In this document: piece by piece, positions 30,234 through 60,031 of the stretch
How the letters are laid out: each line of letters starts with the position of its first letter
Numbering within the stretch: position 1 is the first letter of the stretch
Assembly (NCBI RefSeq): GCF_017313765.1
Contig: NZ_JAFLNC010000005.1
Span: 372,001 to 436,000 of the forward strand
Reading direction: 5' to 3'
DNA: 64,000 nucleotides
DNA from: Sneathiella sedimenti
Lineage (GTDB): Bacteria; Pseudomonadota; Alphaproteobacteria; Sneathiellales; Sneathiellaceae
Notes under the pieces: model-generated
Databases searched by the model: none
Told to the model about the DNA's origin: nothing
What the model saw: the letters and a program-made list of their open reading frames with translations, nothing else
Program-made: the position numbers and the translations under genes

Positions 30234-30929
30234 CTAGTCGATATCTGCCAAGGATTTGATGGCAAGGATGGGTTCAAATAACCCGGCGACGCTGCACGCC
30301 CCGGCAAATCTAGTGAACTCAACCGGAGCCAGGCTTGCCTTTGGCTCGTCAGGCTTGCGGTAAGCAAACGGGCGTCCCGCCTCTATCGCGACATCTATAT
30401 GCCGCGGGTCGAGCGCCAGCCCCTCTCCCGTGACCTTCATGCGCGCCTCCTTCGCCGTCCAGAGCCAGAAGAACAGTTCCCGGCGATCGCTGGCCTCCCG
30501 AAGACGGGCAAGCGCCCCCTGCTCTGCCGCCGTATAGTAATGCCGGCTCAGATCATCAATTTCCACCTTGCGGTCAAACATCTCCACATCTACACCGATC
30601 TCTCCGCTTCGGGTCACCGCGAAAACGGCCGTATCCGCCGAATGGGACATATTGAAGTAGATATCATGTGACGGGATGAAGGGCTTTCCCCGGTCCCCGG
30701 TTTGCAAACCGATCTCCGACGGCGCAACATCCATATAGGCCGCGAGGATGTGCCGTACCTGCCCATGGGCCCGCACATACCGGTTCCGGTGTAGGTCGAA
30801 ACGGAACCGTTCTGCCCGCGCCTGCTCGGCCGGAGTCAGCACCTGCCAACATTTCGCATAATCAATCGGGCTCGTTTCACTGATATCAGCGTGGTAGATA
30901 TGTGTATTTTCGTTCTCAAACGCGATCAT
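30234..30929 (-). CDS. 4'-phosphopantetheinyl transferase (Sfp type)
   Basis: About 231 residues with the Sfp/AcpT pattern: KPFIPSHDIYFNMSHSADTAVFAV, then the metal-binding motif GVDVEMFDRK and WLWTAKEARMKVTGEGLAL. It transfers phosphopantetheine from CoA to a carrier-protein Ser. I chose the ATG at 30929, which has AGGTGG before it and begins right at the conserved region, over the longer ORF start. An Sfp-type enzyme usually serves NRPS, PKS or similar carriers; the ligase-carrier fusion at 52.7 kb is a candidate substrate. Confidence 0.88.
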   Translation of the reverse strand: MIAFENENTHIYHADISETSPIDYAKCWQVLTPAEQARAERFRFDLHRNRYVRAHGQVRHILAAYMDVAPSEIGLQTGDRGKPFIPSHDIYFNMSHSADTAVFAVTRSGEIGVDVEMFDRKVEIDDLSRHYYTAAEQGALARLREASDRRELFFWLWTAKEARMKVTGEGLALDPRHIDVAIEAGRPFAYRKPDEPKASLAPVEFTRFAGACSVAGLFEPILAIKSLADID

Positions 30930-31124
30930 GACCACCTGTGCCTGTTCTGGTTTTCCGGCTGTATACCGACCTTCCCATGATAACGACAGAATCCATATTT
31001 CGACAGGGCCAAATGCCAAGTCCGGCCTTCTCTTCAAGCAGAAATCATCTGTTGATCGCGATCAATGCTACTTCGCCCCTGTAGGGTATAGTGCCTGTTA
31101 CTTCAAAAAACGCAGGAAGGATGC

Positions 31125-52476: not shown

Positions 52477-52720
52477 TTTCACCTCCCATGAAAACATTTT
52501 TACTTTCGTTTATTCTAATATAAAATAAACCACCAATCACGATAGAATGCAAGCAACCAAGCTGGTGCTATATTCCACTACATGGAAAATGCTGATTTTG
52601 TCACATCAACCGCTTGGTAAAGCCGGGATTGGATCAGTCATTCCAGATGAAAGTGATATCTTCTCACGGAATTTTCAGACGAGTTCGAGCTGGTTTGAGC
52701 TATTCAACAGAATTGCCGGC

Positions 52721-54547
52721 CTAGTTATCTAGAACCCCTTGAATGAATTCCATGGCGTCGCCGAGGGACGCAATCGAGGCTATTTCAGCAGCGGAGAATT
52801 GCATGTCGAAGGTTAGCTCGAGTTCCTCGATAAGGGTCATATGCGCTAATGAATCCCAGCCATCCGTATTGAACGGCGTGGAGTCCGCCGACAACCCGGT
52901 GGCGTCGACATTGAAGCAAGTCGCCGCGACCGCGCAGACTTTTTCCTCCAGAGTTCCACTCCCCTCCTCGGAAGGAGCAATATCCTGTGCTACTGTGGCC
53001 ACGTTTGAGGAAGCCATGGCCGTCAACTCGGCCATCAGGACCTTGCCCGCGGCGCTACGCGGGAGCGATGTCATAATATAAAAGTCGGTTGGCGTCCGCT
53101 CTGCCGAGAGATGCTGCCGGCAGAAGGCAAAGGCATCGGCAGCGGTAAGCTCCTGACCTGGCTGCGGTACAACTGCTGCAACCAGCTTCTCGCCGCGCGC
53201 TGCATCGGGAACGCCAAAAGCGACAGCCTCCGCTATACCTGGCATGGTGGAGAGAACGATCGTCACGGTTTCCGGGTGGATTGTCGCCCCGGCGGATACT
53301 ATTGCCGTTTTCTTGCGCCCCACGAAATCGTAAAGTCCGTCCGGTCCGACGCGCACATAGTCGCCCGTATGAAAGGCACCGTTACGCAATACATTTGCGG
53401 TAATGTCCGGCGCTTGGAAATAGCCCCGCATCACTGTCGGCCCTGACAACACCAGCTCGCCAACCTCGCCCTGGGGAACGGGACGGAAATCGTCATCCAA
53501 AACATCTGCTATGCAGCCATAGGGCCGCCCGAGTGACCCAATCCGGCGGGTAGCCTTGTCCGGCCCGGCAAAAAGGGCATCGCAGACCACTTCGCTCAAC
53601 CCATAGGCGTTGACCACAGGCACCTTGAAGCTCTCCTCGACATCGGTCCAGAGTTGGACGTCAAGAAGATCGGCGCTGCACAAAATAAACCGGAAGTCAG
53701 GCCCACAAAAAGCGTCTCTTTGATCACTGCCGAGACGCGCCATGATCCGGAGCATAGCGGGCACCGTGATAAAATGGGTAATCTTCTTTTCTGAGAATTT
53801 ATTCAGAATTGTCGGCACATTCTGCACTGAAAAGGGCGTCTCTCGATAAAGATACCCACCGAACCAAAGCGCCACGAGTGGCCCGCGGATCAGCCCGTCC
53901 ACATGATGGAGCGGTAGCAGGTTAAGCAAACGCGTAGCGCTGTCAAAGCCGTAGACCGTTTCAAAAATGGCAAGTTGCGCGATCAGGTTTTCAAAAGTCA
54001 GTTCAACAGCCTTGGGCGTCGAAGTTGTGCCGGACGTCAACACGAGAAGTGCCACTTCTGGTTTGGTTTCGATGGCACGCCAAGTGCCGGGATCGCGACT
54101 GGTCGACAAAGTTTCATGAACGTCGCGGATCGGAACAATCCGGCTTTGGGGCAGCCTGCCGCCCAAATCGGCATTGTCCAGCATGACCTCATCCCCATAG
54201 AGCGCGGCGGGATCGCATACCTCCAGCAACTCGCTCAGTTCGGGGCCGGTAATATCTGAATCCCCGATTACCGGTGTCATCCCGGCACGAAGCAACGCGA
54301 GAAAAAGTTTTATGGTTGCATCCTCATCCTTCGAGGCGACAAGCACCCGATCCCCGGCAACAAGCCCCGTCCGGGCGAACGCTGCAGCAAGGCAGCGCAT
54401 ATCGCGTGCCAAGTCTTCATAGGAAACAGACCCGGCTGGGAGGTCAGCGAATTCTTGCGACGACTTCTCGACGAGCATTCCGTCGAGATGATGGCAAAAG
54501 TGATCGAAAGCATGAAGGCCCGGCTTGATCGGCAATTCAAACATCAA
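52721..54547 (-). CDS. Adenylate-forming ligase with a C-terminal carrier-protein domain
   Basis: 608 residues. The AMP-binding domain spans about 1-520: P-loop VLTSGTTSTPKAVELT, GLSEVVCDALF, FHTGDYVRVGPDGLYDFVGRKKTAIVSAG and the final Lys region PRSAAGKVLMAEL. Residues about 530-605 are an acyl-carrier domain, with DGWDSLAHMTLIEELE (phosphopantetheine Ser in GWDSL). The enzyme would activate a carboxylic or amino acid and load its own carrier. It overlaps the thioesterase gene by 11 nt. The nature of the acid cannot be read from the sequence. Confidence 0.87.
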   Translation of the reverse strand: MMFELPIKPGLHAFDHFCHHLDGMLVEKSSQEFADLPAGSVSYEDLARDMRCLAAAFARTGLVAGDRVLVASKDEDATIKLFLALLRAGMTPVIGDSDITGPELSELLEVCDPAALYGDEVMLDNADLGGRLPQSRIVPIRDVHETLSTSRDPGTWRAIETKPEVALLVLTSGTTSTPKAVELTFENLIAQLAIFETVYGFDSATRLLNLLPLHHVDGLIRGPLVALWFGGYLYRETPFSVQNVPTILNKFSEKKITHFITVPAMLRIMARLGSDQRDAFCGPDFRFILCSADLLDVQLWTDVEESFKVPVVNAYGLSEVVCDALFAGPDKATRRIGSLGRPYGCIADVLDDDFRPVPQGEVGELVLSGPTVMRGYFQAPDITANVLRNGAFHTGDYVRVGPDGLYDFVGRKKTAIVSAGATIHPETVTIVLSTMPGIAEAVAFGVPDAARGEKLVAAVVPQPGQELTAADAFAFCRQHLSAERTPTDFYIMTSLPRSAAGKVLMAELTAMASSNVATVAQDIAPSEEGSGTLEEKVCAVAATCFNVDATGLSADSTPFNTDGWDSLAHMTLIEELELTFDMQFSAAEIASIASLGDAMEFIQGVLDN

Positions 54548-55361
54548 CTTGCTCCTTATCTACAGCCTCCAGCCGAAGGCGCAATTTTTCTGCAAGCACC
54601 GCAGCGTTTTCCGCGTTGCGCAGCATCGAAAGATGGTTGCCCGGCACATTCACAAATGAGAGCGGACCTCTAATCAGACGGCCCCATCCAAGGTCATCCA
54701 GGAAGAAGCCCCACGGAATCTCCTCGGCACGAAAAATGGTGGCGGAGCCTGTCCAGGGACGCGGATGATACTCTGCCATCTTGCCGTACAATTGGCGTAT
54801 GATCGTCCGGTGAGCTTCGGCATGATTGCCAAGATCCATACGGATTTGTCCGTATCGATGGAGGATCAATTGGTCGTCCGCGCGTGAAAGAAGAGAGCGC
54901 CAGTTTTTGATAAAAAAGCGTACAGCGTAGAGGGATTCCTGTATCGGGTTGTGCAGGAAACGCGCAAACATGGAACGTGGTCGCATGCGGGTATCCAGAA
55001 TGAGGAGCTCCCCCGTTTCCTGTTCCAGTGTCGAAAGATGTCGGGCCACCTCGAAGGCCAGAAAACCGGCGAATGAAAAACCGCAGATATGGATTGGGCG
55101 GGGGATATCCGTCTGGTGAATATCAACTGCGAAACGCTCTGCAATATCGATCAAGCTGAGACTGTCGAGAGCCTCCACCATATCTGGCGCAAGGCGCGCA
55201 CCAAAGCATGAATATTCCTTAGACAGGAATTTCTGTATCGGCTGGGCATAAATGACATTGCCGCCGAAATCCGGAAGAAAAACAATGCTACCGCCGGTGT
55301 CCAGACTATTCATTCGCATCAGGGTGCGGGGTAAGGTACGATGTGACATCTGCATATTCAT
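54537..55361 (-). CDS. Type II-like thioesterase (alpha/beta hydrolase)
   Basis: 274 residues of thioesterase family: IVFLPDFGGNVIYAQPIQKFL near the start, nucleophile GFSFAGFLAFEVARHLS, and a C-terminal His in VPGNHLSMLR. It likely releases or edits the acyl group held on the carrier domain encoded downstream. Overlaps the preceding and the following gene, so expression is coupled. Confidence 0.83.
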   Translation of the reverse strand: MNMQMSHRTLPRTLMRMNSLDTGGSIVFLPDFGGNVIYAQPIQKFLSKEYSCFGARLAPDMVEALDSLSLIDIAERFAVDIHQTDIPRPIHICGFSFAGFLAFEVARHLSTLEQETGELLILDTRMRPRSMFARFLHNPIQESLYAVRFFIKNWRSLLSRADDQLILHRYGQIRMDLGNHAEAHRTIIRQLYGKMAEYHPRPWTGSATIFRAEEIPWGFFLDDLGWGRLIRGPLSFVNVPGNHLSMLRNAENAAVLAEKLRLRLEAVDKEQVDV

Positions 55362-56527
55362 TCCCCGCCTCCCCCGGCAACGGTCATTTTATAGGGCAAG
55401 CGGGAGGTTTCTATTGCGCGCTCTTTCTCGGCGGCGGCCCGTTTACGCTTTAATCCCATTTCAGAAATTTCCCGAAAATCTTCTGAGCGAAACCACAGGC
55501 TGTGATACGCCGGTTCCATGCCGATGCCGCGCTCGGCCTTATACTGCCCGGTCGTACCAAAATTGATGGCGGGTATTCCCAGCCTGATCGCGGATTCAAT
55601 CGTTTGATAGGTACCCAGCTCAAATAGCAGAAACCGGATGTCGGCCGATTGTCCCCAGTGCTGGGCAAACAACATATCCTCACCAAGAAAACTGAGCTGC
55701 ATGGCGACCGGGTCGCCTCCTTGATAGGCGAATGTGATATCCAGCGCCTCTGGCATTGACCGGAAAATATGCTCGAAATAAGCGCGATTATGCCACAGTT
55801 CCGTTTCATTGCGATGATAGGTTGCCGCATATAAATCGTAAAATGGTGCCACCAGTTCCGCCGTAATATTGGCTCCGGTAAATTGCTTGTAGGTCAGACC
55901 TTCAGATGCGACTTTTTTCCGCTCCCGTCGTACCTTGACGCGTCCCCGCTTGTGCATCGATGCCAGAACGTCCTCAAAATTCTCATTGCCCGAATTACGC
56001 CAGATATAGGCGTTGCCCTCTGTTTTTAGAAATCCAGCAGCGTCTGTAGCTTCCCACTCCGGCGCGGTCATATAGGTGACCTGTACGGAAGACGCGCCGT
56101 CCTTCTTCGCCTGTTGCCGAAGTGCCACCAGTAAGGCACCTCGGGCCTCGTCTTCATCGACCGCCGCATGCACCAACAAGCGCGGCCCGGAAATCGGCGT
56201 CATCGGGACTTCGACCTGGAGTTTTGGATAATAGGATCCCGCCACGCGGCTATGCGCCATGGCAAGGCCAAGATCGATGCCAAGCTCACCCTCTGAATGA
56301 TCCTTGAGGTAGGCGGGAGCTGCGGCAACGGCCTTGTTTTTCCGATCGCGCATTAGGATATGTCGCGGGTGAAAACCGTTTTCCGGGCTGGCAATACCGC
56401 TTTCTTCCAGCGCAAGCAGATGGCAGTGGCGGACATAAGGATTGTCCATGCCGGCGCAACGATCCCAATCCTCCGGCGAAATGTCGGCAATGTTGGTATG
56501 GACGGAAACAGTCCAGCTATCAGTCAT
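55358..56527 (-). CDS. DUF482/COG3146-type acyltransferase (GNAT-like fold)
   Basis: About 389 residues with two GNAT-like halves. Motifs: NSGNENFEDVLASMHKRGRVKVRRERKKV, then LYAATYHRNETELWHNRAYFEHIFRSMP, and INFGTTGQYKAERGIGMEPAYHSLWF. The family was called peptidogalycan biosynthesis protein but has no settled function. Next to a carrier-protein ligase it could transfer the activated acyl or aminoacyl group to an amine acceptor. Translational overlap with the thioesterase gene. ATG 56527 is chosen over a longer ORF that overlaps the gamma-glutamyltransferase gene. Confidence 0.82.
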   Translation of the reverse strand: MTDSWTVSVHTNIADISPEDWDRCAGMDNPYVRHCHLLALEESGIASPENGFHPRHILMRDRKNKAVAAAPAYLKDHSEGELGIDLGLAMAHSRVAGSYYPKLQVEVPMTPISGPRLLVHAAVDEDEARGALLVALRQQAKKDGASSVQVTYMTAPEWEATDAAGFLKTEGNAYIWRNSGNENFEDVLASMHKRGRVKVRRERKKVASEGLTYKQFTGANITAELVAPFYDLYAATYHRNETELWHNRAYFEHIFRSMPEALDITFAYQGGDPVAMQLSFLGEDMLFAQHWGQSADIRFLLFELGTYQTIESAIRLGIPAINFGTTGQYKAERGIGMEPAYHSLWFRSEDFREISEMGLKRKRAAAEKERAIETSRLPYKMTVAGGGGE

Positions 56528-56538
56528 AAGAGAACAGC

Positions 56539-58293
56539 TCAAGATGCCCCCTTTCCGGAATGCGGGTTCTGCTTGATGCGTTGACCGCTGGCACGACGCG
56601 GGTCCCCCACCGCTTCCATCTCCTGATCTGGATGACCGGCAACAAGACAAATGGAGGGCTGGGCAATGCCACCGACCTTGCCAAGGGAGGCTTTATGTCC
56701 AAGCGCAGAAAGCCCCGTCATCATTGCTTCGGGAGCGGTCTCCTCAATAACGACTTTTCCGGCAAATGAAAGATGGGGTTCGGTGGAAGCCGGGATGCCA
56801 TGGGTGAAGACGCGTGGCGCATTTAAAGCCTCGCTCAGGCTGAGGTTATGAGCAAGATGATGTATCAGGGTTTGCGCCATGGCCTGAAGCTGCAAGTCTG
56901 CGCCGGGACCACCGCCCGCTATATGGCGACCGTTCCCCTCCCTGAAAATAAGGGGGTAGGCACTGACGCGGGGACGTTTTCCGGCCTGAAGGCATGCCGG
57001 GTGGCCCGCATCGGTATAGCTTTGCGCCCCGCGGGTCGAGATGACAAAACCAAGCTCTGGCACCACCGGGCCGTCGAAGGACGGATCGCTGGGCGTGGAC
57101 ACAAAGATATTTCCGCCGCCGTCGATAATTGCCGCGATAGAGGTATCAAGTGTCACGGCATTCTCGCCCGTGTTATTTGGAGTAACTCGCCTGGGAATTG
57201 GTTTTTCCGGTATTTGGCCAGCGGCCGGCAAAGGATGTATTGCAGACTCCATCTGGATCATGGCAGCCCGGCTCGCGGCATACGCAGGCGAGAGCAATAT
57301 ATCGAGAGGCACATCCACAAAATCCGGATCGCCATAAAAGGCTTCCCGGTCCACCAGCGCCAGCTTCAGCGCCTCTATCATCATATGGCAAGCGTCGACG
57401 GATTGATGACCGTGTCGCGCGATACCGCCCGCCTCCAGGATTTGTAACGCCTGTGAAAGAGCCGGACCCTGTGTCCAGCTTCCCGGCGTAAAAAGACTTC
57501 CTCCGAAAACGCGTGCCCGGGTGGCCTCAACTACCGGCGTGTGATGAGCGGCGAGGTCAGCATGCGTGAGCCAGCCGTCATAGGTCTTTACATGTCGGAT
57601 CATAGCGTCGGCAATTTCGCCTTTGTAGAAGGCATCGCGCACCGCTTCTAGTCCGCGCGCGCGCCCTGCTTTTGAAGCGGCTTTCTTTTCTGCATCGATC
57701 AGGATGCTGATTGTATTTGCAAGATCAGGCAGGCGGAACTTCTGTCCTGGTTTAACAGGGGCGTCGTTCGGCAACCAGATGCGGGCATTATCATCGCTGA
57801 TACGTCGGTAATGGCGCTCAAACTGGGCGGAACAGGAGACGAGATCCTCATGCGCGGAAAAGCCTTCGGCGGCAAGAACTTGTGCAGGCCCTGCGAGATC
57901 GGCAAAGCTCATGGTCCCGAACCTTGACAGTGCCGTCACCCAGGCGTCTGGTGCGGCCGGAACAACGGTTCTCAAAATACCTTGCGGAATTCGGCCCCGG
58001 TGCTTTTCCTCGAAAAATCCTGGATTGGCACTCGCAGGCCAGCGTCCGGCCCCCTCAATAGAAAAGTACCGGTTCTCATCGGCAATATAGAGAAGGATAG
58101 GCGCAACGCCGCCAAACTGTACCTGCTCTGAATGCAGGACGGTGAGCGCAATGGATGCAGCTACTCCGGCGTCTATGGCATTTCCTCCCGCCTCAAGCAC
58201 ATCTGCGGCGATCCCGGCGGCGACGTCATGCCCCACGGAAACTGCATAGCTACTATTTAGAGTGGTGCCCTGAACTCCGCTTACATGTCCCAT
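56539..58293 (-). CDS. Gamma-glutamyltransferase-family protein
   Basis: 584 residues, Ntn-hydrolase superfamily. Conserved blocks: AADVLEAGGNAIDAGVAASIALTVLHS, GGVAPILLYIADENRYFSIEGAGRWP, and the predicted autoprocessing site before the Thr in TLDTSIAAIIDGGGN at about residue 385, where the mature small subunit begins. No clear signal peptide, so it may act in the cytoplasm. It lies at the head of the ligase-thioesterase-transferase operon and could cleave or transfer gamma-glutamyl groups on the product. Confidence 0.82.
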   Translation of the reverse strand: MGHVSGVQGTTLNSSYAVSVGHDVAAGIAADVLEAGGNAIDAGVAASIALTVLHSEQVQFGGVAPILLYIADENRYFSIEGAGRWPASANPGFFEEKHRGRIPQGILRTVVPAAPDAWVTALSRFGTMSFADLAGPAQVLAAEGFSAHEDLVSCSAQFERHYRRISDDNARIWLPNDAPVKPGQKFRLPDLANTISILIDAEKKAASKAGRARGLEAVRDAFYKGEIADAMIRHVKTYDGWLTHADLAAHHTPVVEATRARVFGGSLFTPGSWTQGPALSQALQILEAGGIARHGHQSVDACHMMIEALKLALVDREAFYGDPDFVDVPLDILLSPAYAASRAAMIQMESAIHPLPAAGQIPEKPIPRRVTPNNTGENAVTLDTSIAAIIDGGGNIFVSTPSDPSFDGPVVPELGFVISTRGAQSYTDAGHPACLQAGKRPRVSAYPLIFREGNGRHIAGGGPGADLQLQAMAQTLIHHLAHNLSLSEALNAPRVFTHGIPASTEPHLSFAGKVVIEETAPEAMMTGLSALGHKASLGKVGGIAQPSICLVAGHPDQEMEAVGDPRRASGQRIKQNPHSGKGAS

Positions 58294-58642: not shown

Positions 58643-60031
58643 TTACAACCATTCCGCCTTGTCCGCGCCAAGGGCCGGAGATGGCCAACCCCAGCCGGGC
58701 TTGCTTTCAGAGAAGCGGATAACGGGCCCGAGGTGGCGAACCTGCCCATATGTTGTCTCACTGTCCATTTGCAGCGACCGTGCCTCCTCGGCCGAGATGC
58801 CCATTCCTTCCCGCGGATAGTCAACCCGTCCCTGATCCTGCAGGAACATTGCGGATCGACATAGCGATACCTTGACGTGGTAGCTGCCGCCCTCAACCGC
58901 GCGGCGGGCAAGCGCCAGCAGAGTGCCATAGGCGCCGAGATATCCTGTGCTATAGTCACAGAAATAAACCGGCAGAAGCTCGGGCGGATTGCCGACCTCA
59001 TGGCTGATTCCCGTCACGGTCTGGGCAATCTGTTCCCATCCGCCCCGGTTGCTGTAAGGCCCACCCTCGCCATAGCAATTGATTGAGGTATAGATCAGTC
59101 CCGGGCGTTCTTTCGCCAACTCCTCGGGGCCAAAACCACGCGCATCAAGGACGCCGGGCCGGTATCCTTGCGAAAACACATCCGCGCCCCGCACAAGTTC
59201 TTTCAATCGGGCGGATTCTTCCGCTGTATTAAGGTCCAGGAAACAGCTTCGTTTACCATGAGACAGTTCAAGAACAAATTTCTTGATCTGCGGGACATGG
59301 CTTGCCCCAACCATCAGGACATCGGCCCCATGCTCGGCCATCGTCCGCGCAGCAACAGGCCCGGCAAGAATTCGTGTCAGGTCAAGAACCCGTACTCCCT
59401 GAAGCGCCGGCCCGTCCTCAGGAAAGGGCTCTGGCTCGCTCTCGCCAATCTTCTCGATCTCAACAACCGCCTGAGCGCCAAGAACCTGCCCATGAGGATG
59501 ATTGCGCCATTCCTCTTCCGTGCGGACAATTCCGCCGCAGGCATTGGCGGCAGCAATTCTCTGGTCGATCTCTTCGGCATCCCATTTTGCAACCGCCTTG
59601 GCGATGCTTTCCTGCGTCTGCTCGCAGTCAAGAATGCCGAGCACTTTTTCCTTCAATTGCTTCATCCCGAAATGCGGCATGAACCAGCGTCCGTCCTTGG
59701 TGGGATAGGCCCGAATGGTGTCATAGGCCGCCTGTGCCAGGGGTGAGTCCCCGTAGACTTTGTACTCTCCATCGGATTGCCGGATCATCAAATGGGCAAC
59801 ACTGTTAAGCGCCATCGCCGCATGGCGGACATCTACAGATACTTTTTGAGACCGCCCGGTTTTCATTTCCCAGATATCAGAGATTGCGACCCCTGTGGCC
59901 GCCAGTATGGCCGCGCCCGTTTCCGCAACCTTGAACCGGGTGGAATATACCGGATCATTTCCCGTGATCTCCACTGACGGCATGTCGTCACGACTTCTAA
60001 TTTTCAGCAGATCCTGTAAAGCGGCGTTCAT
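58643..60031 (-). CDS. Class III CoA-transferase (CaiB/BaiF family)
   Basis: 462 residues. The family pattern RVLDLTRILAGPVAARTMAEHGADVLMV is at about residue 215, with KRSCFLDLNTAEESARLKELVRGADVFSQGYRPGVLDARGFGPEEL after it, giving the Asp nucleophile region. The N-terminal part (about 1-200) resembles the second half of another CoA-transferase unit. It transfers CoA between carboxylic acids. An inverted repeat lies 50 bp upstream. Its acid substrate is unknown. Confidence 0.85.
   Translation of the reverse strand: MNAALQDLLKIRSRDDMPSVEITGNDPVYSTRFKVAETGAAILAATGVAISDIWEMKTGRSQKVSVDVRHAAMALNSVAHLMIRQSDGEYKVYGDSPLAQAAYDTIRAYPTKDGRWFMPHFGMKQLKEKVLGILDCEQTQESIAKAVAKWDAEEIDQRIAAANACGGIVRTEEEWRNHPHGQVLGAQAVVEIEKIGESEPEPFPEDGPALQGVRVLDLTRILAGPVAARTMAEHGADVLMVGASHVPQIKKFVLELSHGKRSCFLDLNTAEESARLKELVRGADVFSQGYRPGVLDARGFGPEELAKERPGLIYTSINCYGEGGPYSNRGGWEQIAQTVTGISHEVGNPPELLPVYFCDYSTGYLGAYGTLLALARRAVEGGSYHVKVSLCRSAMFLQDQGRVDYPREGMGISAEEARSLQMDSETTYGQVRHLGPVIRFSESKPGWGWPSPALGADKAEWL

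Follow-up and report, generated by a model that had tools for sequence, protein, structure and literature searches.

FemX and MprF are tRNA-dependent enzymes, and the titles of their structure entries describe Sba18 and Sbb17 as tRNA-dependent as well. In altemicidin biosynthesis, the GNAT enzymes SbzI and SbzC accept acyl groups directly from carriers that adenylating enzymes have loaded (available text of PMC6331615). Here, we analyzed a stretch of 64,000 nucleotides from the 3.58-Mb genome of Sneathiella sedimenti (contig NZ_JAFLNC010000005.1), which we call the window, and within it four adjacent genes that form one cassette. They encode a relative of the gamma-glutamyltransferases (GGT), a transferase predicted to share the fold of the Fem enzymes (FEM), a thioesterase (TE), and an adenylating enzyme with a fused carrier (LIG). 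We give about even chances to a reading of this cassette as a route without condensation domains, in which an amide is formed from a carrier-tethered acyl group and a hydrolase then tailors the product.

The cassette and its distribution

The open reading frame (ORF) list and Pfam assignments place all four genes on the minus strand in the order GGT-FEM-TE-LIG. An earlier note on this DNA had described a four-gene carrier operon here, and both the ORFs and their families bear it out. The features are as follows.

56539..58293, minus strand: GGT, GGT-family Ntn-hydrolase, LmbA-like, 584 aa (PF01019, 295 bits; nearest solved sequence, 6j3a)
57142-57144, minus strand: Thr codon of the predicted GGT autocleavage site, between D383 and T384 (sequence alignment)
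55358..56542, minus strand: FEM, FemAB_like (PF04339), predicted Fem-fold transferase, 394 aa (PF04339, 310 bits; AlphaFold2 [AF2] model)
54537..55361, minus strand: TE, alpha/beta-hydrolase thioesterase, 274 aa, S96-D123-H243 (PF00975, 29.8 bits)
52721..54544, minus strand: LIG, adenylating enzyme with C-terminal carrier, 607 aa (PF00501, 187 bits; PF13193, 48 bits)
52745..52942, minus strand: LIG carrier domain, residues 536-601 of the 608-aa reading (PF00550, 19.0 bits)
52850-52852, minus strand: codon of the predicted phosphopantetheine serine, S566, of the LIG carrier (serine of the WDS motif)
30234..31037, minus strand: Sfp-type 4'-phosphopantetheinyl transferase, outside the cassette (PF01648, 52.6 bits; PF22624, 31.2 bits)

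Six more Sneathiella genomes carry the same genes in the same order (loci L033 to L038), with 47-79% identity to the window proteins; the contig of L036 ends inside TE. Across 24 Sneathiella genomes, the cassette is all-or-none, present in 7 and absent from 17. Some of the genomes that lack it are incomplete (completeness as low as 56%), which makes any individual absence uncertain. LIG was found in 6 of the 17 Sneathiella genomes that are at least 90% complete and, at E ≤ 1e-100, in 6 of the 24, the contig of the seventh ending before LIG. The 17 cassette-less genomes had no LIG at E 1e-100 and a best FEM match of 31-34% (none in one genome), and one of them had no GGT match at E 1e-20. Operon FEM orthologues within the genus are 48-72% identical, versus 31-34% for a stand-alone DUF482 protein. 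The corresponding figures are 59-79% versus at most 33% for the best GGT matches elsewhere and 51-76% versus at most 34% for TE, the latter from a search of 60 genomes that included these 24 and in which the 34% match was a 76-residue piece.

Outside the genus, six alphaproteobacterial loci (L050 to L055) carry variants of the cassette, and L053 and L054 have all four genes in the order GGT-FEM-TE-LIG. Joint conservation of the four genes, which the earlier note had proposed to check, was thus found in 7 of the 24 Sneathiella genomes plus these two loci. Over all 13 loci, FEM is present in 13, LIG in 12 of the 12 whose contig shows it, TE in 12, and GGT in 10. The six non-Sneathiella loci were discovered via LIG, which is therefore present there by construction, and the Sneathiella loci via TE, so that only the FEM and GGT counts are independent of the search throughout. 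The FEM query found none of the 13 loci, yet FEM is present in every one of them. An ORF comparison of the 13 loci, which dropped some overlapped ORFs (e.g., LIG of L050), revealed no flanking gene common to all and no other group in more than four.

Among 385 genomes sampled evenly across the class, the TE profile matched 3 (two Sneathiella and one weak match) and the LIG profile 5, of which two were Sneathiella and three had sister ligase-carriers; the cassette is therefore rare and patchy. The weak TE match, in G102, was excluded (71.5 bits versus 507-515). The sister LIG matches, in G083, G219, and G311, were kept out of the cassette counts, and no FEM, TE, or GGT was found in the fetched 16-20 kb around them. 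Two of these sister genes have an MBOAT acyltransferase as a neighbor and the third a sulfotransferase, a Dlt-like arrangement (L063:7667-11701, L064:9177-12888, and L062:8124-11053). A contig scan with a single LIG protein gave no match; an alignment-based scan gave at least 10 loci, a lower bound owing to its two 8-residue exact patterns, and four of these (L046 to L049) are the same as L033, L034, L035, and L037 and were counted once. The LIG tree places the copies from Pseudorhodobacter and Solirhodobacter within those of Sneathiella, at a fork that is not resolved; this placement is compatible with transfer without proving it. A plasmid origin, searched for with the LIG query only, was dropped, the single Sulfitobacter plasmid match (28%) being too distant to count. 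Operon GC (0.56) is close to that of the window (0.54) and is therefore uninformative on transfer.

The longest ORF readings are 52721-54547 for LIG, 54537-55361 for TE, 55358-56650 for FEM, and 56539-58293 for GGT. Read from the TTG at 56542, FEM overlaps GGT, which stops at 56539, by 4 bp, and GGAAAGGGGG lies 4 nt upstream of that TTG. Since the 4-bp overlap and the 394-aa length recur in L033, L034, and L036 (TTG) and in L035 (ATG), FEM most likely starts at TTG 56542 and spans 55358-56542. FEM of L053 and L054 (ATG) also overlaps GGT by 4 bp; the exceptions at this junction are L038 (1-bp overlap) and L037 (11-bp gap). The alternative start in the window, ATG 56527, lies 11 bp from GGT. 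The overlap is 4 bp between FEM and TE, and 8 or 11 bp between TE and LIG according to the LIG start, for which ATG 54544 is most likely and TTG 54547 also possible: L033 and L035 use the matching ATG, and L034 has TTGATG like the window. All three junctions probably overlap. Of the overlaps given in the earlier note, that at 55358-55361 stands and that at 54537-54547 most likely shortens to 8 bp; its 11-bp gap before GGT most likely gives way to an overlap of FEM with the GGT stop.

The next gene upstream, for a CoA-transferase, ends at 58643 (349-bp gap), and the next downstream, for DctP, starts at 52497 (223-bp gap), so the window cassette looks like these four genes alone. A 506- to 527-aa ligase and a 326-aa ORF lie just upstream of the operon in L033:11265-13765, L035:12667-15167, and L036:6547-9110; the L033 pair is AMP-binding and PanE-like by Pfam, and no such pair lies directly upstream in the window. 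In the Solirhodobacter olei locus (L051:3758-9108), FEM occurs as a tandem pair of genes, and an 807-aa protein unites AMP-binding, carrier, and Acyl_transf_3 domains.

Predicted functions of the four proteins

LIG consists of an AMP-binding domain (PF00501, 187 bits), an AMP-binding_C domain (PF13193, 48 bits), and a carrier. The window carrier scores 19.0 bits on PF00550, just below the cut-off of 20.8; the profile matches 11 of 12 LIG orthologues at E ≤ 0.01 (best, 3.6e-06). The carrier serine of the WDS motif, whose modifiability the earlier note had made a test of its reading, is invariant in all 12 copies. The Sfp-type enzyme that it placed at 30.2 kb is indeed present at 30234-31037 and could prime the LIG carrier. 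Over its length, the AF2 model of LIG (mean pLDDT, 83; pTM, 0.75) resembles the LgrA initiation module (TMq, 0.77) and EntE-EntB (0.73), and among the best 50 Foldseek matches the highest query-length TM-scores belong to A-carrier modules such as LgrA and EntF.

The pocket residues of LIG were read as D217, G218, R221, T/S/A261, L/I289, S291, A314, C322, D323, and K502, and all except those at 261 and 289 are identical in 12/12 copies. D217 was placed by HMMER alignment to LgrA, where it meets the Asp of the FDGSALDIF motif; the others were placed by hand from a MAFFT alignment using GrsA numbering. D217 corresponds to position 235, the Asp of alpha-amino-acid adenylation. We compared the 12 cassette LIGs with 13 other ligases in one alignment. 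The residue pair at the positions of D217 and R221 is Asp-Gln in the three sister ligase-carriers (with E, N, or S at 323) and in lig2_L034, His-Ala in lig2_L033 and lig2_L050, Asn-Tyr in lig3_L033, and Gly-Ala or Ser-Ala in four A-T-TE proteins. In ATacyl_L051 and an uncertain ORF of L045, the Arg is present, with Phe or Ala replacing Asp. The Asp-Arg pair is confined to cassette LIGs in this alignment, and neither residue alone is unique to them. The A-T-TE single proteins (~880 aa) were considered as relatives and set aside; their pocket differs, with G or S at the Asp position (A in L045, ORF uncertain), and tblastn found no FEM in the fetched 18-20 kb around them. Four Sneathiella genomes encode A-T-TE proteins of ~875-884 aa (L039:8717-11344, L040:6441-9065, L041:9357-11984, and L042:8688-11342), each with a ~950-aa ORF within 10 kb.

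Judged by these alignments, the Asp, Arg, and Asp of the LIG pocket point to a polar, perhaps amino-dicarboxylic substrate, and a compound bearing both an amine and a second carboxylate is a plausible candidate. The code DPRHLALLAK, with Asp 235 and Arg 239, is given for "AMA," which we take from the section heading to be alpha-aminoadipate (PMC12283262, section 12, available text). DPRHVSLLAK appears in that section as well, as the code of Asn-activating domains; the pair is thus not unique to activation at a distal carboxylate, which weakens that assignment. No known Glu or Asp code fits LIG, in which the His of DPRH-type codes is T, S, or A, and the exact pocket-code strings had no match in the literature searched. 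The codes of McyE (gamma-Glu type) and McyB are reported to have the same Asp-Arg pair; neither code was found in the literature searched. Oxalate-CoA ligases, the closest ligases of solved structure, suggested oxalate as the LIG substrate; it was rejected since those enzymes carry His and Ala in place of D217 and R221.

FEM scores 309.7 bits on PF04339, the former DUF482 (cut-off, 27). Its AF2 model (mean pLDDT, 92) has FemX (4ii9) as its top structural match by Foldseek and VIA-align (Z, 22.2; rmsd, 4.4; 300 aligned), followed by FemA, Sba18/Sbb17, and MprF at Z ~18-21 (Sba18, 20.4); tandem GNATs and N-myristoyltransferases reach Z ~15-16. A Fem double-GNAT fold is therefore predicted for FEM. 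What had been called a GNAT-like transferase of unknown function remains a transferase, sharpened by the model to the Fem fold. By sequence, FemX is only a marginal match (E, 0.033). K335 and R338 are invariant in 15/15 proteins, the stand-alone DUF482 protein included. Fem enzymes need a Lys near this point, to which K335 may correspond.

TE exceeds the PF00975 cut-off (29.8 versus 26.4 bits). Ser96, Asp123, and His243 are aligned in 11/11 complete copies, and the surroundings of the His are poorly conserved in L052. The nearest solved relatives are Vlm2 and the NRPS AB3403 (4zxh).

GGT belongs to the Pfam family G_glu_transpept (PF01019, 295 bits) and falls under the TIGR00066 cut-off (227.5 versus 357.85 bits). 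Its best solved match is 6j3a (E, 4e-62; 213.5 bits); after it and its mutant 6j3i come the wild-type-like entries 4y23 (184 bits) and 2e0w (179 bits). The entry 6j3a is labelled merely as a gamma-glutamyltranspeptidase and has D420-T421. These numbers equal those of the cleavage site of LmbA-2991, an Asp-Thr motif (PMC5519988, available text), so 6j3a seems to be LmbA, a GGT homologue that cleaves carbon-carbon bonds. D383-T384 occurs in 10/10 operon GGTs, with the catalytic T384 invariant, and self-cleavage before T384 is predicted.

The position of Escherichia coli Arg114 is Ala or Val in the 9 operon copies readable there (one is cut off), and that of Asp433 is Gln in 10/10. Arg114 was read as chain residue 90 of 2e0w (offset of 24), and Asp433 was placed through 4y23. 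In E. coli, these residues bind the alpha-carboxylate and alpha-amine of the gamma-glutamyl group. As a control, the Sneathiella GGT paralogue L069 keeps both Arg and Asp in the same alignment, where gaps fall in its nucleophile region; L070, another paralogue, has Ser and Gly. Because the gamma-glutamate anchors are missing from the operon GGTs, a gamma-glutamyl reaction is unlikely, and the label "gamma-glutamyl enzyme" given earlier is not supported. GGT homologues in two operon-free Sneathiella genomes (L071 in G018 and L072 in G019) resemble LmbA at the anchor positions, where they have Gln and Met.

The proposed route and its alternatives

In the route that we propose, LIG would adenylate a small polar acid and load it onto the phosphopantetheine of its own carrier. 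The acid is most likely an amino acid; it may be dicarboxylic and be activated at the distal carboxylate. FEM would take the carrier thioester as its acyl donor and form an amide with a soluble amine, replacing a condensation domain, which Pfam did not detect at E ≤ 0.001 in any of the four proteins. TE would clear mis-loaded carrier or complete release. GGT would cleave itself before T384 and later, as an Ntn-hydrolase, cut an amide or C-C bond rather than a gamma-glutamyl bond, either in the product or in an intermediate. Since the closest partner of FEM is the ligase-carrier, FEM most likely works on the cargo of LIG. In outline, a conserved, compact, carrier-based, and probably amide-forming route is supported, which partly upholds the earlier note. 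A more specific version is rather unlikely in our estimate: a DUF482 Fem-fold enzyme that has switched from tRNA to a carrier-bound, distally activated amino-dicarboxylic acid and replaces the condensation domain, with a GGT relative lacking gamma-glutamate recognition cutting the conjugate.

Several observations weigh against the proposed route. TE is missing from L050 (GGT-FEM-LIG), and GGT is missing within the fetched flanks of L051 (FEM-FEM-TE-LIG), L055 (FEM-TE-LIG), and L052 (LIG and TE, with FEM on the opposite strand). In the FEM tree, L052 and L055 have FEMs that cluster with the stand-alone DUF482 protein. By tblastn, 6 of the 13 loci (L033 to L036, L050, and L051) have another AMP-binding enzyme close to the cassette, so that the cassette may not act alone there; these enzymes do not form one subfamily. 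Both by sequence and by Foldseek E-value, the solved relatives that score best against LIG are oxalate-CoA (oxalyl-CoA) ligases at ~26%, which yield CoA thioesters. Finally, the solved Fem-fold relatives of FEM are mostly described as tRNA-dependent, and thus its donor may be a tRNA.

This last point leads to the strongest alternative, which is possible but on the unlikely side: the LIG carrier holds an amino acid, FEM adds an aminoacyl group from aminoacyl-tRNA to its amine, and TE releases a dipeptide-like product. PacB reportedly performs a comparable tRNA-dependent transfer onto a carrier-bound residue in pacidamycin synthesis. The structural neighbors of FEM argue for it, FemX, Sba18/Sbb17 (by entry title), and MprF being tRNA-dependent, and D217 of LIG suits an amino acid with a free amine. 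Such a route needs a releasing enzyme, and TE is found in 12 of the 13 loci, but L050 has no TE between FEM and LIG. Our comparisons fit a carrier donor and a tRNA donor with a carrier-bound acceptor alike.

A gamma-glutamyl conjugate as the product, which the earlier note had suggested, is improbable; in this reading, GGT would attach or remove the gamma-glutamyl group. Pfam does place GGT in the family, and the Asp and Arg of LIG resemble those of DPRHLALLAK for "AMA," but the Asn code DPRHVSLLAK shares this pair (both in the available text of PMC12283262). Both anchor residues, kept by paralogue L069, are absent from every readable operon copy, and the TIGR00066 score of GGT is below the cut-off. 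Equally doubtful is a Dlt-like decoration, in which the carrier-bound acyl group goes to a surface polymer or lipid instead of a soluble amine: the neighbors of the three sister ligase-carriers in the class sample (MBOAT acyltransferases for two, a sulfotransferase for one) and, in L051, a nearby AMP-binding + PP-binding + Acyl_transf_3 protein and glycosyltransferase are consistent with it, but in the ORF comparison the FEM loci shared no family of MBOAT or polymer genes, and the sister ligase-carriers have Gln in place of R221.

Comparison with known systems

We found no description of this set of gene families in the literature searched, which is weak evidence since coverage of subscription papers was partial, and none pairing the names DUF482, FemAB, COG3146, and PF04339. 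If the proposed route holds, the cassette would add a compact, portable amide-forming module that, having no condensation domains, may escape mining rules built on them. It would also offer a tractable way to learn what the DUF482 family does and be another case of a GGT relative recruited beyond glutathione metabolism. Should the carrier-switched Fem-fold version be true, it would perhaps be the first biochemical role for the family. The all-or-none presence within the genus provides ready strain pairs for metabolite comparison.

A counterpart of FEM in the same genome is the stand-alone DUF482 protein (G000:C4:77391-78497), which shares its family and the motif YYPKLQ...GPRLL at 34% identity. 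It differs in being present in 22 of the 24 Sneathiella genomes (not in G010 and G016), with or without the operon, at 31-34% identity. FemX and the streptothricin-type Sba18/Sbb17 have a Fem fold like that of the FEM model (Z, 20-22); however, they are only 10-16% identical to FEM and use aminoacyl-tRNA (Sba18/Sbb17 by entry title), whereas FEM falls in PF04339. In butirosin synthesis, BtrJ, BtrI, BtrH, and BtrG are said to include a dedicated transferase that moves a carrier-tethered acyl group to an amine, as proposed here, but reportedly with an ATP-grasp ligase, a free carrier, and a gamma-glutamyl cyclotransferase, all of other families.

LmbA and Ant6, of lincomycin and anthramycin synthesis, share with the operon GGT both the family and the Asp-Thr cleavage site (PMC5519988, available text); they differ in context, as Pfam revealed no alkylproline pathway genes among the cassette neighbors examined. 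The altemicidin/SB-203208 modules SbzL-SbzG/K-SbzI and SbzB-SbzG/K-SbzC likewise combine an adenylating enzyme, a carrier, and a GNAT-superfamily acyltransferase without a condensation domain. There, however, the carriers are separate proteins, SbzC is described as similar to mycothiol acetyltransferase and not to DUF482/Fem proteins, and the word "thioesterase" is absent from the main text (PMC6331615, available text). The assembly logic proposed for the cassette has a precedent in altemicidin; its set of families has no description in the literature searched.

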